Source: a bacterium
GTDB lineage: Bacteria > JAHJDO01
Assembly (NCBI GenBank): GCA_030652805.1
Contig: JAUSPT010000087.1
Coordinates: forward strand, 1-14,646
DNA length: 14,646 nt
Direction: 5' to 3'
Shown: positions 10,137-14,188 of the stretch, one piece after another
Layout of the letters: each line of letters starts with the position of its first letter
Position numbering within the stretch: the stretch's first letter is position 1
Made by a program: the position numbers and the translations under genes
The notes under the pieces: generated by a model
Seen by the model: only the letters and a program-made list of their open reading frames with translations
What the model was told of the DNA's origin: nothing
The model's database searches: none

Positions 10137-10676
10137 TTACTGCGAAATTAGAAGATGTGATCTTCTGTTTTTTGCCCAGGCCTTTTCATCATGTCCAGTA
10201 TCAACAGGTTTGTCTTCTCCATAGGTTATTGTGTATAATCTTGACGGAGAGATACCTAATCCTGTTAGATATCTGCGCACGCTCAAGGCTCTCTGTTCGC
10301 CGAGTATGAGGTTATACTTTCTGGAACCCCGCTCATCGCAATGTCCTTCAATCATTAGGCGTATATTTCTATGTTTTTTTAACCATGTAGCAACTTTCTC
10401 CAACGTGGATATTGTGTCTTTTCCTAGACGATAGCTATCATAATCAAAAAGGATGTCAGAAAATATTACTTTTTCCTTTGCACTAGGTTCTACAAATATT
10501 GTATCCTTAACAGGCTTTTCCAAAGGAATGTTTTCTCCTTTAATTGCAGCCATCTGAGCTTGTTTTATGTTGTCTTCATACTCTTTATCACTTGTGAACT
10601 TCTTAAATGTTGAACATCCTCCTAAGCATAGTGAAAGCAACAAAGCTATAGACATAACCAGCGAAAACTTTTTCAT
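10137..10676 (-). CDS. pal: Peptidoglycan-associated lipoprotein Pal (OmpA-like domain)
   Basis: This 179-residue outer-membrane lipoprotein of the Tol-Pal system links the outer membrane to peptidoglycan. Its lipobox is LGGC with Cys21, then comes a linker, then an OmpA-like domain (about 70-179). That domain holds the diagnostic GHCDERGSRKYNLILGEQRA segment (residues 111-130; Asp114 and Arg129 are the expected diaminopimelate ligands) and NRRSHLLI at the end. AAGGAG lies 5 nt before the ATG. It is the first gene of the minus-strand operon and diverges from the pyrophosphorylase gene. No tol genes are in the window. It is strong evidence that the organism has an outer membrane. Confidence 0.94.
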   Translation of the reverse strand: MKKFSLVMSIALLLSLCLGGCSTFKKFTSDKEYEDNIKQAQMAAIKGENIPLEKPVKDTIFVEPSAKEKVIFSDILFDYDSYRLGKDTISTLEKVATWLKKHRNIRLMIEGHCDERGSRKYNLILGEQRALSVRRYLTGLGISPSRLYTITYGEDKPVDTGHDEKAWAKNRRSHLLISQ

Positions 10677-10699
10677 AATTGCTCCTTATTTTTTTGTAT

Positions 10700-10754
10700 G
10701 CTAGAATAATCTAGCGTTATGCTAAAATCTAGCATATAGAATCAGTCATGTCAA
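10700..10754 (-). promoter_or_regulatory. pal promoter with two tandem palindromes
   Basis: On the minus strand TTGACA (10754-10749), 17 bp and TAGATT (10731-10726) with TGC just before it form an extended -10 promoter. The -10 lies inside the palindrome TATGCTA-AAATC-TAGCATA (10718-10736 on the plus strand). A second palindrome, GCTAGA-ATAA-TCTAGC (10700-10715), follows in the early transcribed region. The two share the TCTAGC half-site and centre about 20 bp (two helical turns) apart, which fits cooperative repressor binding. No regulator gene is adjacent. The promoter for the divergent gene at 10786 is not clear. Confidence 0.55.
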
Positions 10755-10785
10755 TATTTGTTATGTAGAGATAAAAGAGAATTGA

Positions 10786-12192
10786 ATGAACATAGATAAA
10801 ATTAGAAACAAGTTGCAAGATTATAATCAGGAACATGTTCTTAAATGGTGGAATCAGTTAGATGATACTCAACGCAAAGGGCTTCTTCAGGACATTGAGA
10901 GTATTGATTTTGAGCTCATGGAGAAATTAGTTAACCAATACATGGAAAGAAAGGAAATCTCTATATCATTTGATGATATTAAAAGCCCTGAAATTATTAA
11001 AATTCCAAGAACTGAACGTGAAATACTGCATCAGAGAGAGGCAAAAAAGATAGGCGAGCAATGTATAAGAGATGGTAAAGTAGCTTGCTTTGTTGTTGCA
11101 GGAGGGCAGGGTACAAGGCTTGGTTTTGAAGGTCCAAAAGGAGCGTATCCTATTGGTCCAATATCCGCTAACAGCATATTTCAATTTCATGCAGAGAAGA
11201 TACTTAAAGCACAGCAGAAATATAATGTCCGGCTCATGTGGTACATTATGACGAGCAAGCCGCTTCATAAGCAAACAATAAATTTTTTTAAACACAATAA
11301 ATATTTTGGCATGAACAAAGATCAGGTGCGATTTTTTTCTCAAAGAATGCTTCCTGCAATAAATAAAGATGGCAGGTTTCTTATGAGTTCAAAGCATGAA
11401 GTTTTTAAGAGTCCAAATGGACATGGAGGAGCCTTGCTTGCTCTCAGGGATAGTGGAGCTATTGATGAAATGATAGAAATGGGCATTGAATATATAAGTT
11501 ACTTTCAGGTGGACAATCTTATTGTCAATGTCCTGGACCCTGTTTTTATAGGTTATCATATAAAAACAGGTGCTCAGATGTCAAATAAGGTAACCCCTAA
11601 AATTGCTCCTTCGGAAAAAGTCGGAGCAGTTGTAATAATGGATAAGAAATATGCGGTTATTGAATATAGTGATTTACCCCAAGTGCATATGAGCGATAAA
11701 GATAAAGACGGCTCTTTTAAATTTAATGCAGGAAGCATAGCAATTCATATATTAAATACAGAGTTTGTAAAGTCTCTTACTGAGAAAGGGATAGGACTTC
11801 CGTATCATATAGCAGAAAAGAATATCCCTTATGTGAATAATAGCGGCGAGTATATTAAGCCAAAGGATAAGAACGGAATAAAATTTGAAACATTTATCTT
11901 TGATGCATTAAAGTTTGCTGAAAATGTCGCAAACATGGAAGTTATGCGCGAGGATGAATTCTCTCCAATAAAAAGTTTAACGGGTATAGATTCTATTGAA
12001 AGCGGAAAGCAACTCTATATAAATAGATGTGCGCGCTGGCTCATGGAAGCAGGGATTGATATTCCGTTTGACAAAAATGGAAATGCAAAAATAAAAATAG
12101 AAATCAGCCCATTATTTGCAAACTCACCGGATGATTTACAGCGTAAGGACTTGAGCTCAATAGATACTGCCAAAGATATATATCTGGCATAA
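10786..12192 (+). CDS. UDPGP type 1 family nucleotidyltransferase (UDP-GlcNAc/UDP-sugar pyrophosphorylase-like)
   Basis: This 468-residue enzyme most resembles eukaryotic-type UDP-N-acetylhexosamine pyrophosphorylases, which make UDP-sugars from UTP and sugar-1-phosphate. The nucleotide-binding loop is AGGQGTRLG (105-113), followed by PKGAYPIGP (117-125). Further family motifs are PNGHGGALLALRDSG, the metal/sugar-site YFQVDNLIVNVLDPVFIG, and FNAGSIAIHI with LPYHIAEKNIPYV. The N-terminal helical extension (1-90) is also usual for UAP proteins. Whether it uses glucose-, GlcNAc- or another sugar-1-phosphate cannot be read. The ribosome binding site is weak (AAAGAGA, 10774-10780). It may supply precursors for envelope glycans, in keeping with the glycosyltransferase at 945, but they are not linked in an operon. 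Confidence 0.88.
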   Translation: MNIDKIRNKLQDYNQEHVLKWWNQLDDTQRKGLLQDIESIDFELMEKLVNQYMERKEISISFDDIKSPEIIKIPRTEREILHQREAKKIGEQCIRDGKVACFVVAGGQGTRLGFEGPKGAYPIGPISANSIFQFHAEKILKAQQKYNVRLMWYIMTSKPLHKQTINFFKHNKYFGMNKDQVRFFSQRMLPAINKDGRFLMSSKHEVFKSPNGHGGALLALRDSGAIDEMIEMGIEYISYFQVDNLIVNVLDPVFIGYHIKTGAQMSNKVTPKIAPSEKVGAVVIMDKKYAVIEYSDLPQVHMSDKDKDGSFKFNAGSIAIHILNTEFVKSLTEKGIGLPYHIAEKNIPYVNNSGEYIKPKDKNGIKFETFIFDALKFAENVANMEVMREDEFSPIKSLTGIDSIESGKQLYINRCARWLMEAGIDIPFDKNGNAKIKIEISPLFANSPDDLQRKDLSSIDTAKDIYLA

Positions 12193-12220
12193 AAGTAGAA
12201 TGACTGTTCAATGATTAATG

Positions 12221-12924
12221 TTAGCCAGGAGAATGCAATGAAGAGCAGAAATATTGAGTGGTACAATGAAGAGTATTCAAGGCTCCAGGAAAGCGGGAGT
12301 TCTTGGAGTACTCCGCAGATGTATGAGAACAAATTAGAATGTTTAAACTGGTGTTGTGAATCGGTAGGTATTCTCAAAACAGTGTCCATTCTTGATGTTG
12401 GCTGTGGTGCGGGAGAGCTTGCAAAGTTGTTATTTAGAAATGGATACTCAAATGTAGACGGAATCGATATTTCAGAAGTCGCCATTAAACACGCGGTCAG
12501 AATACATAATAGCACATTTCTTTCCAAAGATTTTTCTTGTCCAGTAAAGCTAGAGAAGGAATATGACTGCATATATGACACAGATTGTTTGCACATGGTT
12601 GTTGGGCATCAAGCTAGGAAAGCTTTTCTTGAGAACGTAAAGCTGAACCTTAGCGAGAATGGCGTATTCTTGACTGGAATAAATTCTTCAAGAAAGGATG
12701 TCGATCCGTATGTTGTACTCGATGGTGTTGCGCAATACTTCTGGCCACAGAAGGAACAATACATTGAGGAGATATGTAAAGCAGGGCTCCATAATGATAG
12801 CATCGCGAGATATGCCGCCAAGAAACAAGAAAAGATGTGACGGATGGTCTGAAATCATATTCAAGTCAATCGGCTAACAAACCGGATACAACGGATGGCT
12901 AACTGCCACCGCTAATCCACGACG
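12221..12924 (+). mobile_element. Putative single integron gene cassette (methyltransferase cassette)
   Basis: The segment has the anatomy of an integron cassette: one gene, a very short 5' leader, and an attC-like site directly after it. Integron integrase cuts between G and TT of the core GTT. Cutting at G12220/T12221 and at G12924/T12925 gives a 704-bp unit. In the circular form, G12924 followed by TTAGCC (12221-12226) restores GTTAGCC, an exact reverse complement of the R'' box GGCTAAC (12872-12878). In place, the R' box reads GTTAGAA, where the last two bases belong to the flanking DNA and no longer match. That is what insertion of a cassette into a secondary site would leave. No integrase and no second attC are visible in the window. 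Confidence 0.6.
12238..12840 (+). CDS. Class I SAM-dependent methyltransferase
   Basis: This is a 200-residue Rossmann-fold methyltransferase. Motif I is ILDVGCGAGE (51-60), the acidic residue after strand 2 is in VDGIDISE (73-80), and DCIYDTDCLHMV (motif IV region) follows. The acceptor substrate is unknown; small-molecule methyltransferases with this short form are common. I chose the ATG at 12238 because AGGAG (12227-12231) is 6 nt upstream. An earlier in-frame ATG at 12211 would lie outside the proposed cassette boundary and lacks a good ribosome binding site. The gene appears to be the cargo of an integron cassette. The C-terminus is short (ends KKQEKM) and may be trimmed relative to homologues. 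Confidence 0.85.
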   Translation: MKSRNIEWYNEEYSRLQESGSSWSTPQMYENKLECLNWCCESVGILKTVSILDVGCGAGELAKLLFRNGYSNVDGIDISEVAIKHAVRIHNSTFLSKDFSCPVKLEKEYDCIYDTDCLHMVVGHQARKAFLENVKLNLSENGVFLTGINSSRKDVDPYVVLDGVAQYFWPQKEQYIEEICKAGLHNDSIARYAAKKQEKM

Positions 12925-12930
12925 TTAGAA
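12872..12930 (+). other. attC-like recombination site (59-base element)
   Basis: The site is exactly 59 bp. Outer boxes are GGCTAAC (12872-12878, R'') and GTTAGAA (12924-12930, R'), complementary over CTAAC/GTTAG. After an unpaired spacer (AAACC opposite ACGAC), GGAT (12884-12887) pairs with ATCC (12915-12918). Next, CGG (12892-12894) pairs with CCG (12909-12911). TGGC (12896-12899) pairs with GCCA (12905-12908), with A12895 unpaired and a TAACT loop. R box, unpaired spacer, L box, extrahelical base and terminal loop are the structural hallmarks of attC sites. R'' departs from RYYYAAC at one position. Confidence 0.65.
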
Positions 12931-12942
12931 AAAATAAAATTA

Positions 12943-13503
12943 ATGAAAAAATTCCCGAGTCGTAAAAAGAATAGATTAAAAGAATATGATTATTCAGAGA
13001 ATGGATATTATTATGTAACGATTTGTTCAAAAGACCGTCAGAATATATTTGCAAAAATTAATAATTCAGAAATTGTAGGGGCGGGGCTAGCCTCCGCCCA
13101 TGACAACAATCCTGCCCAAATACAATTAACCAAAATCGGGCAAATCATTCAAAACCAATGGGTTGATATTCCAAATCAATACCACAATGTTGATATCGAC
13201 ACATTTATTATCATGCCCAATCATATTCATGGCATAATTATAATCAATAATCGGGATGAGGCAAGCCCATCCCCTACGAATTTAGGACAAATCATTTGTT
13301 CATTTAAATCAAAATGCACAAATAAATATTTGAATTTTATAACACAAAATAATTTAGATAAATCAAGCAAAATTTGGCAACGTAATTATTACGACCACAT
13401 TATCCGAAACGATAAATCATTGCAGGAAATCAGAGAATACGTCATAAATAATCCTGCAACATGGGCGGATGATGAGAATAATATTTCACTCTGTTCGCAA
13501 TGA
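12943..13503 (+). CDS. REP-associated tyrosine transposase (RAYT, Y1_Tnp family)
   Basis: This 186-residue relative of IS200/IS605 TnpA makes single-strand cuts at REP sequences. It begins in the typical way (RKKNRLKEYDYSENGYYYVTICSK). The HUH metal motif is MPNHIHG, with His94 and His96. The C-terminal signature KIWQRNYYDHIIRN contains the candidate nucleophile within the Tyr139-Tyr140 pair; which of the two is catalytic I cannot decide. The C-terminus EIREYVINNPATWADD is standard. Two REP-like palindromes lie in frame within the gene (13075-13099 and 13253-13277), encoding VGAGLASAH and RDEASPSPT. The gene appears intact. It directly follows the attC-like site. No good Shine-Dalgarno sequence precedes the ATG, suggesting low expression. 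Confidence 0.9.
   Translation: MKKFPSRKKNRLKEYDYSENGYYYVTICSKDRQNIFAKINNSEIVGAGLASAHDNNPAQIQLTKIGQIIQNQWVDIPNQYHNVDIDTFIIMPNHIHGIIIINNRDEASPSPTNLGQIICSFKSKCTNKYLNFITQNNLDKSSKIWQRNYYDHIIRNDKSLQEIREYVINNPATWADDENNISLCSQ
13075..13099 (+). repeat. GTAG-headed REP palindrome inside the RAYT gene, copy a
   Basis: The element begins GTAGGGG, continues with arm GGGCGG, the self-complementary core GGCTAGCC and the arm CCGCCC, with one bulged T. Head, GGC-NN-GCCT core and CCC end match the palindromes at 787 and 2568. It is read through in frame (VGAGLASA). Confidence 0.8.
13253..13277 (-). repeat. GTAG-headed REP palindrome inside the RAYT gene, copy b
   Basis: On the minus strand it begins GTAGGGGATGGG, has the core GGCTTGCC and ends TCATCCC. 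It has the same 25-nt layout as copy a but opposite orientation, so the two heads point outward in a REP/inverted-REP arrangement about 150 bp apart. It is translated in frame as RDEASPSPT. Confidence 0.8.
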
Positions 13504-13535
13504 TAGAAAATGGATTTTAAGGTTAAAAATGGGTT

Positions 13536-13838
13536 TTATATATTAGCCAAAAACTGTTTTATTTGATTATGATTCCCTGCTAATATAGCAATACACTTTG
13601 AGCCTTCTCTCCTTATAAGAACGCGAATATTCCTTTCTATTCCAGTCTCATAATAAGGCTTTCTGAGTTGTTTATAAAAAAATCTTGCGGCTAATTTCTT
13701 TGCCTTCAGTAAATTACAACCACTGGAATAATAAATATTTAATGCTTCTAATATTAATCCTACTATTTTTCTCTGCCCATGACCCAGACGATTAAGGCTT
13801 CTTTCAAAAGAAGGCTGGTAATAAAGGCGTAAAGACAT
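13536..13838 (-). CDS. RelE-superfamily toxin
   Basis: This 100-residue basic protein looks like a RelE/ParE-superfamily toxin: an N-terminal YYQPSFERSLNRL strand-helix, a middle LLKAKKLAARFFYKQLRKPYYE, and a C-terminal ERNIRVLIRREGSKCIAILAGNHNQIKQFL. Most RelE-fold toxins cut mRNA on the ribosome. Which residues would be catalytic here (candidates Arg69, Arg72, Arg76, Arg77, His89) is uncertain. The ATG begins immediately after the antitoxin TAA (TAAATG), with GGAAGGAAG inside the antitoxin gene as its ribosome binding site. It is convergent with the RAYT gene, 32 nt away. Confidence 0.75.
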   Translation of the reverse strand: MSLRLYYQPSFERSLNRLGHGQRKIVGLILEALNIYYSSGCNLLKAKKLAARFFYKQLRKPYYETGIERNIRVLIRREGSKCIAILAGNHNQIKQFLANI

Positions 13839-14105
13839 TTAGTTCACGCTTCCTTCCTTTAAATTATCAACGAATTTTTTTGTTACAAGTTTTTCTTTCC
13901 CTTTTTCTTTCATGGAAAGCATGTCTAGTTTTTTATATTCTTCTTCTGTAAACACTTTTTCTATTGTCTCAAGAGGAATAAGTTCAATTCTATTCTCAGA
14001 AATTGCCACATCGAATATAGATCCTTTTCCTAGACTAAGCACATCCATTATCTTTTTCGGGATTGTTACTTGATGTTTTGATGTCATCGTAATTATCACT
14101 TTCAT
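13839..14105 (-). CDS. AbrB/MazE/SpoVT-family antitoxin
   Basis: This 88-residue protein has an N-terminal swapped-hairpin AbrB DNA-binding domain (TSKHQVTIPKKIMDVLSLGKGSIFDVAI, positions 8-35 with the typical QVTIPK core) and a charged, flexible C-terminal half that would wrap the toxin. It is expected to neutralise the downstream toxin and repress the operon. The annotated ATG at 14105 is only 2 nt after a perfect AGGAGG (14108-14113). A GTG two codons in (14099) has an 8-nt spacing and may be the true start. Pairing of an AbrB-type antitoxin with a RelE-type toxin is like PrlF-YhaV, although these proteins are not evidently close to that pair. Confidence 0.85.
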   Translation of the reverse strand: MKVIITMTSKHQVTIPKKIMDVLSLGKGSIFDVAISENRIELIPLETIEKVFTEEEYKKLDMLSMKEKGKEKLVTKKFVDNLKEGSVN

Positions 14106-14121
14106 CGCCTCCTTTTAAAAA

Positions 14122-14150
14122 ATAATACCATAAAGTAGGTAAATCGTCAA
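14122..14150 (-). promoter_or_regulatory. Promoter of the AbrB/RelE-type toxin-antitoxin operon
   Basis: On the minus strand TTGACG (14150-14145), a 17-bp spacer and TATTAT (14127-14122) form a near-consensus promoter. The start point would be near 14115, a few bases before AAAGGAGG. Short TACC/GGTA half-sites (14126-14129 and 14138-14141) flank the spacer and could bind the antitoxin, but this is weak. Confidence 0.75.
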
Positions 14151-14188
14151 GGATGAAAGTAAGGAAGGAACTCTGATTTATTTCCTTA

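Follow-up and report, generated by a model that had tools for sequence, protein, structure and literature searches.

An integron-type cassette at a methyltransferase gene

A methyltransferase gene followed by a hairpin that resembles an integron attC site raises the question of whether the gene arrived as an integron cassette, and what kind of site received it. The window, which is the whole analyzed stretch of 14,646 nucleotides, comes from a 2.0-Mb MAG that is 95.6% complete (G000). This genome was compared with four congeners (G001–G004). The five genus genomes represent five species and are all MAGs, 62–96% complete, while the next-nearest kin available for comparison share only the domain with them. 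The features described below indicate that positions 12221–12924 probably form a single methyltransferase integron cassette, which was put in by integron-type recombination at the 3′ end of an attI-like leader dispersed across the genus.

The left recombination point, G|TTAGCC, is located on the forward strand at 12220–12226, where the target base G12220 is joined to the six opening bases of the cassette. These seven bases are complementary at 7 of 7 positions to the R″ box GGCTAAC (12872–12878), which opens a 59-bp attC site, in place at 12872–12930 on the forward strand. The in-place R′ box is GTTAGAA (12924–12930); its first base, G12924, is the final base of the cassette, while the rest of the R′ bases are target DNA. 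The three motifs on which the first-pass annotation was built, namely GTTAGCC, R″ and the in-place R′, are thus all present in the sequence. The cassette is filled by a single compact ORF, which starts 18 bp past G12220 and ends 31 bp short of R″. It encodes a class I SAM-dependent methyltransferase of 200 aa (12238–12840, forward strand; Pfam Methyltransf_25, E 8e-12). The start codon is most likely the ATG at 12238, rather than position 12211, and follows a Shine-Dalgarno-like AGGAG, read directly from the sequence at 12227–12231 on the same strand, 6 bp 5′ of this ATG. An integron gene cassette would further be expected to be excised and inserted by an integron integrase.

The methyltransferase gave a weak match to the defence-associated methyltransferase model mad2 (E 2.7e-13), which is insufficient to name it a defence gene. 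A distant homologue is encoded by a canonical cassette in a plasmid array of Vibrio alginolyticus (10583–11297), which has the start GTTAGCAG and the R″ box CTGCTAAC. Searches of 59 other genomes, GTDB contigs, IMG/VR and a plasmid collection returned no close copy of the window cassette; the plasmids contained distant relatives alone, with at most 35% identity. An Rfam scan of the window gave zero matches.

Folding and covariance analysis of the attC site

An attC site is expected to fold better as the bottom strand. The ssDNA fold of the window site had an energy of −9.8 kcal/mol (z −2.83) for the bottom strand versus −8.7 kcal/mol (z −2.30) for the top strand. The pairing proceeds from R″/R′ to GGAT/ATCC. 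Some bases of the L″ region stay unpaired, and a second A bulges out ahead of the terminal hairpin; the L boxes contain two mismatches. The R″ box carries G at position 2, which is a mild deviation from RYYYAAC that is also present in the dfrA7 and dfrA14 attC sites of the training set described below. Hand-written attC scanners did not detect the window site, because they demanded RY..AAC in R″.

The covariance model R1 was trained on 26 sites, either attC or attC-like, the majority of which came from annotated integrons. They comprised class 1 cassettes and the Vibrio alginolyticus array from annotated plasmids, together with candidates that adjoin an integron integrase in unrelated genomes. 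Because these last candidates were chosen by our own scanner, the curation of the set is incomplete. The top R1 match in the window was exactly 12872–12930 on the forward strand, with 16.7 bits (rough E 0.042), while the runner-up had 9.0 bits. With R3, a further model whose training set excluded the window site, the score was 19.1 bits. Together with the fold, these scores uphold the attC-like site proposed in the first-pass annotation. The scores are moderate: the site is below most confirmed attC sites of the genus, and R1 has stronger matches elsewhere in G000, several of which turned out to be cassettes. In 19 genus attC sites the L″/L′ helix contained 28 cells altered on both sides versus 13.8 expected after shuffling, and 0 of 500 shuffles were as high. 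This covariation is support rather than proof, because a pair-counting measure on the same 19 sites did not exceed its control (348/500).

The match between R″ and the cassette start is weak evidence when considered by itself, as 16% of random GTTs have the exact 7-mer no more than 2 kb downstream. When the 7-mer match was combined with an attC-like fold, only 6 of 6000 random GTTs passed; the window GTT passes this combined test. Could the hairpin nevertheless be a chance structure beside an ordinary methyltransferase gene? The moderate attC score, with E of about 0.04 for the window and several such matches expected genome-wide, would allow it, but the match coincides with a leader end, a complementary cassette start, an almost empty site in a congener, and boundaries placed exactly around one ORF, which makes such a coincidence extremely improbable. 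The complementarity of R″ to the start, taken with the attC site, bears out the earlier proposal of a single integron cassette inserted precisely at G|TT.

The cassette target is the end of a repeated leader

Genus-wide attC matches led to cassettes with alike left flanks, and these flanks defined two leader families. The class A leader is about 140 bp long, with about 20 copies at E < 1e-3 using model R2, which was built from five copies. The class B leader is about 71 bp long and gave 60 BLAST matches in five species, including 12 in G000. Both families end at G|TT; the class A model ends at GTT by construction, while the pairwise comparison of sister loci, described in the next section, is independent of the model. 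In leader copies with an intact 3′ end the sequence is unrelated from G|TT onward, and an ORF usually starts within about 50 bp. The class A leader contains a sigma-70-like site on the correct strand, while class B was under the threshold of the promoter scan. The leaders could serve as attI sites, and class A may also provide a promoter. Scans of IMG/VR with both leader ends returned nothing.

In the window, the left half of the target (12188–12220, forward strand) is a truncated 3′ end of the class B leader, ending in AAAAGTAGAATGACTGTTCAATGATTAATG, with 91% identity to leader positions 38–71 of 71 (E 2.9e-6 in G000). Its segment TTCAATGATTAATG is identical at five G000 loci and also occurs in congeners. 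The UDP-sugar pyrophosphorylase gene upstream has its stop fused to this half, which lacks the promoter-like 5′ portion of the leader, so that expression of the cassette gene at this locus would probably need read-through from the upstream gene. The right half, TTAGAAAAAATAAAATTA (12925–12942, forward strand), leads into a RAYT gene (12943–13503, forward strand), encoding a Y1/IS200-like transposase (Pfam Y1_Tnp, E 3e-5); RAYT genes are also found beside leaders in congeners.

When positions 12220 and 12925 were joined, the sequence aligned on both sides of the junction to the contig C47 of G003, save for a 21-bp indel flanked by TTAATG repeats. There, an almost empty target lies upstream of a related RAYT gene, which is just upstream of proC. 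The empty site that the first-pass annotation had suggested seeking in relatives was thus found in an almost empty form, with the indel as the discrepancy. The window has the same arrangement, save for a toxin–antitoxin-like pair between RAYT and proC (13536–14105, reverse strand). A MazE-type antitoxin domain is encoded in 13839–14105, while the partner has no Pfam match; the pair is missing at the corresponding place in both G002 and G003:C47. The locus of G002, the closest relative, was dropped as an empty site and G003:C47 was used instead, because the whole of 12193–14179 is missing in G002, which makes it uninformative on the cassette alone.

These data change the view of the target. The first-pass annotation regarded the cassette as a stray one in an unremarkable non-attC site, and this part was not supported, as the sequence that received the cassette is the 3′ terminus of a leader with about 60 copies. 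Because the target is such a repeated leader, and because other copies of it and a second leader family hold cassettes, the window cassette is one of many at dispersed attI-like sites. Insertion into an arbitrary secondary site of the attG type, for which a short G|TT-like core would be enough and the likeness to other loci would be incidental, has precedents: IntI1 uses sites with little beyond GNT/GTTRRRY (PMC10127599), and attG insertion has been described, as cited in PMC12444791. One cassette in G000, on contig C43, has an exact R″ match at a target unlike either leader family, which is what such insertion would produce. At the window, however, the 34-bp left flank matches a leader present about 60 times with E 2.9e-6, and further copies of the same leader hold cassettes too, so that an arbitrary target is very unlikely here. 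Both situations share a cassette at G|TT away from an integron; the attG case involves a loose, short core (PMC10127599), whereas at the window the cassette lies in a specific, repeated sequence that is at least 34 bp long, with a 91% match.

Cassettes at leader ends and their exchange between species

To pass the leader-end test, the first seven bases needed an exact complement 100–2100 bp downstream, and this complement had to open a site in which the L boxes pair and the folding energy is past a fixed threshold. An R″-matched cassette with attC was found at 10 of 34 leader ends, compared with 6 of 6000 GTTs taken at random from the same DNA; the former is not an unbiased rate, because several leader sets were reached via attC matches. 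Leaders found only by the class A model or by class B BLAST also include passes (G003:C133, G002:C62 and G000:C31). The other 24 ends had no attC passing this strict test; some of these are truncated or degenerate, and some may be empty sites ahead of host genes. In every matched case the cassette started at one constant leader base.

Among the families encoded at leader loci, not all of which have a confirmed attC, are an esterase-like hydrolase, an NYN-domain protein, an alpha-L-fucosidase, a kinase-like protein and DUF3800. At G004:C14 a class A leader is followed by a confirmed 1.9-kb cassette with the PtuA/PtuB pair (Septu defence) and a high-scoring attC.

The comparison of sister loci showed how the content differs between species. 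Around lolA, the contigs G000:C31 and G002:C62 match over 1.6 kb at 96% identity to just past ATTAATTGTT, the GTT end, and a further aligned stretch of 3 kb at 93% starts at GTTCAGCC. These flanks enclose one cassette in G002, while in G000 they enclose a different cassette, then another leader and a third cassette. Similarly, G000:C22 and G002:C136 are aligned through the leader to GTT and then diverge. This pattern fits an exchange of cassettes at a fixed position since the species diverged.

The leaders could also have been spread by some other mechanism, for example as REP-like repeats moved by RAYT or as a repeated promoter, with cassettes landing secondarily at a usable G|TT rather than at integrase sites. 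About 7 of 11 RAYT genes in the genus have a leader on the same strand no more than about 1.4 kb upstream of them, for which the chance expectation is below 1% by a rough estimate from leader density, and some class B copies lack the 3′ end. Both observations are in line with this explanation. What it leaves unaccounted for is the constant leader base at which cassettes start in all matched cases, the alike behavior of two unrelated leader families, and three short copies (34–40 bp) that retain just the recombination end. We consider this explanation quite unlikely.

Search for an integrase

No protein exceeded the cut-off of the IntI profile (TIGR02249) in G000–G004, while in the positive control 33 of 240 unrelated genomes did. 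This agrees with the earlier statement that there is no local integrase, and extends it to the whole genome and four congeners. The window has no integrase gene, and the search of G000 with Phage_integrase recovered XerD, XerC and one 63-aa fragment, and nothing more. The arrangement of a complete integron, with intI beside attI, was not found in G000–G004. The window itself corresponds to a SALIN, as it has one attC-model match of note, with no integrase in the window or the genome. The first-pass annotation had also pointed to a genome-wide search for both an integrase and further attC sites; attC sites and cassettes were found elsewhere in G000, and the integrase was not.

The matches of genus proteins to the IntI profile skip approximately positions 205–242. 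This stretch of the profile corresponds to the extra segment of IntI. In G000:C32 and G002:C44, which belong to the two closest species, a leader and a cassette start lie directly downstream of xerD, an arrangement not seen in G001 or G004. The xerD product was demoted as the integrase of this system, as the leader pairing is not kept in the latter two genomes and the protein is a canonical XerD of 294 aa without the extra IntI segment; its involvement is a possibility only. A recombinase in G002:C121 was also set aside, since the next gene reads, from its translation, as an IS91-type transposase.

The lack of IntI across five genomes could mean that the genus once had a complete integron and lost intI, the scattered cassettes being immobile, decaying CALIN/SALIN remains. 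Degenerate or truncated attC sites, such as those in G000:C32, C71 and C99, are consistent with such decay, and we regard it as a real but minor possibility. It is difficult to reconcile with the lolA locus, where flanks of 93–96% identity in G000 and G002 enclose different cassettes, pointing to exchange since the species split, or with the differing content after the orthologous leader of G000:C22 and G002:C136. Dozens of dispersed leaders would also not be explained by decay alone. On the other side, one may envisage a dispersed integron, in which dozens of attI-like leaders, some with a promoter, each hold one to a few cassettes that can be exchanged. A recombinase other than canonical IntI would act on them in trans, for example XerC/XerD, or one aided by RAYT transposases; such a system is unlikely in our estimate.

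For integron-type insertion at the leader end, the proposed course of events is as follows. The folded bottom-strand attC of a cassette circle would recombine with the leader at its double-stranded G|TT end, and the insertion would set the methyltransferase behind the upstream gene. The recombinase would presumably act in trans, and it could be an IntI that is now lost, unassembled, or carried by another element. The leaders themselves may have spread by deltaattI-type cassettes, which are a known route, and the RAYT genes beside many leaders offer a second lead.

Comparison with known systems

The lone cassette is of a known kind, the SALIN, while the dispersed attI-like leaders look new; no description of them was found in a partial literature search. 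In Shewanella genomes 115 scattered SALINs have been reported (PMC9229058). The window resembles SALINs and CALINs in having one attC-bearing cassette without an integrase, but differs from them in that the cassettes lie at conserved, repeated attI-like leaders, with no IntI found in five species. In the deltaattI-type cassettes of class 1 and class 2 integrons a fragment of attI, with a core such as AATAAAATGTTRRRY, replaces attC at the 3′ end and can carry attI ends elsewhere (PMC12901181). A similar structure was observed in G000:C99, where the attC of a cassette is truncated and runs directly into the final 40 positions of a class B leader. The known integrons of this kind have an integrase and attI fragments of 14–18 nt, whereas here the copies are chromosome-wide and many have the upstream promoter-like part. 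The sedentary chromosomal integrons of Xanthomonas are alike in that CALINs recur at conserved loci away from intI; the available text of that study reports no shared leader sequence and describes intI as kept in many strains (PMC12444791), in contrast to the shared leaders and the lack of detected IntI here.

The meaning of these observations depends on whether the leaders are working attI sites. If they are, each genome would have many platforms, so that any of numerous loci could give immediate expression to a newly captured cassette, and cassettes could be sampled with no need for a long array. The usual picture of an integron is a single platform, in which one attI and a promoter stand beside one integrase. 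It would also become testable which recombinase moves cassettes without a detectable IntI. Detection tools that demand two attC sites or an integrase will overlook such cassettes. In these bacteria, gene shuffling may be chromosome-wide instead of limited to one integron.
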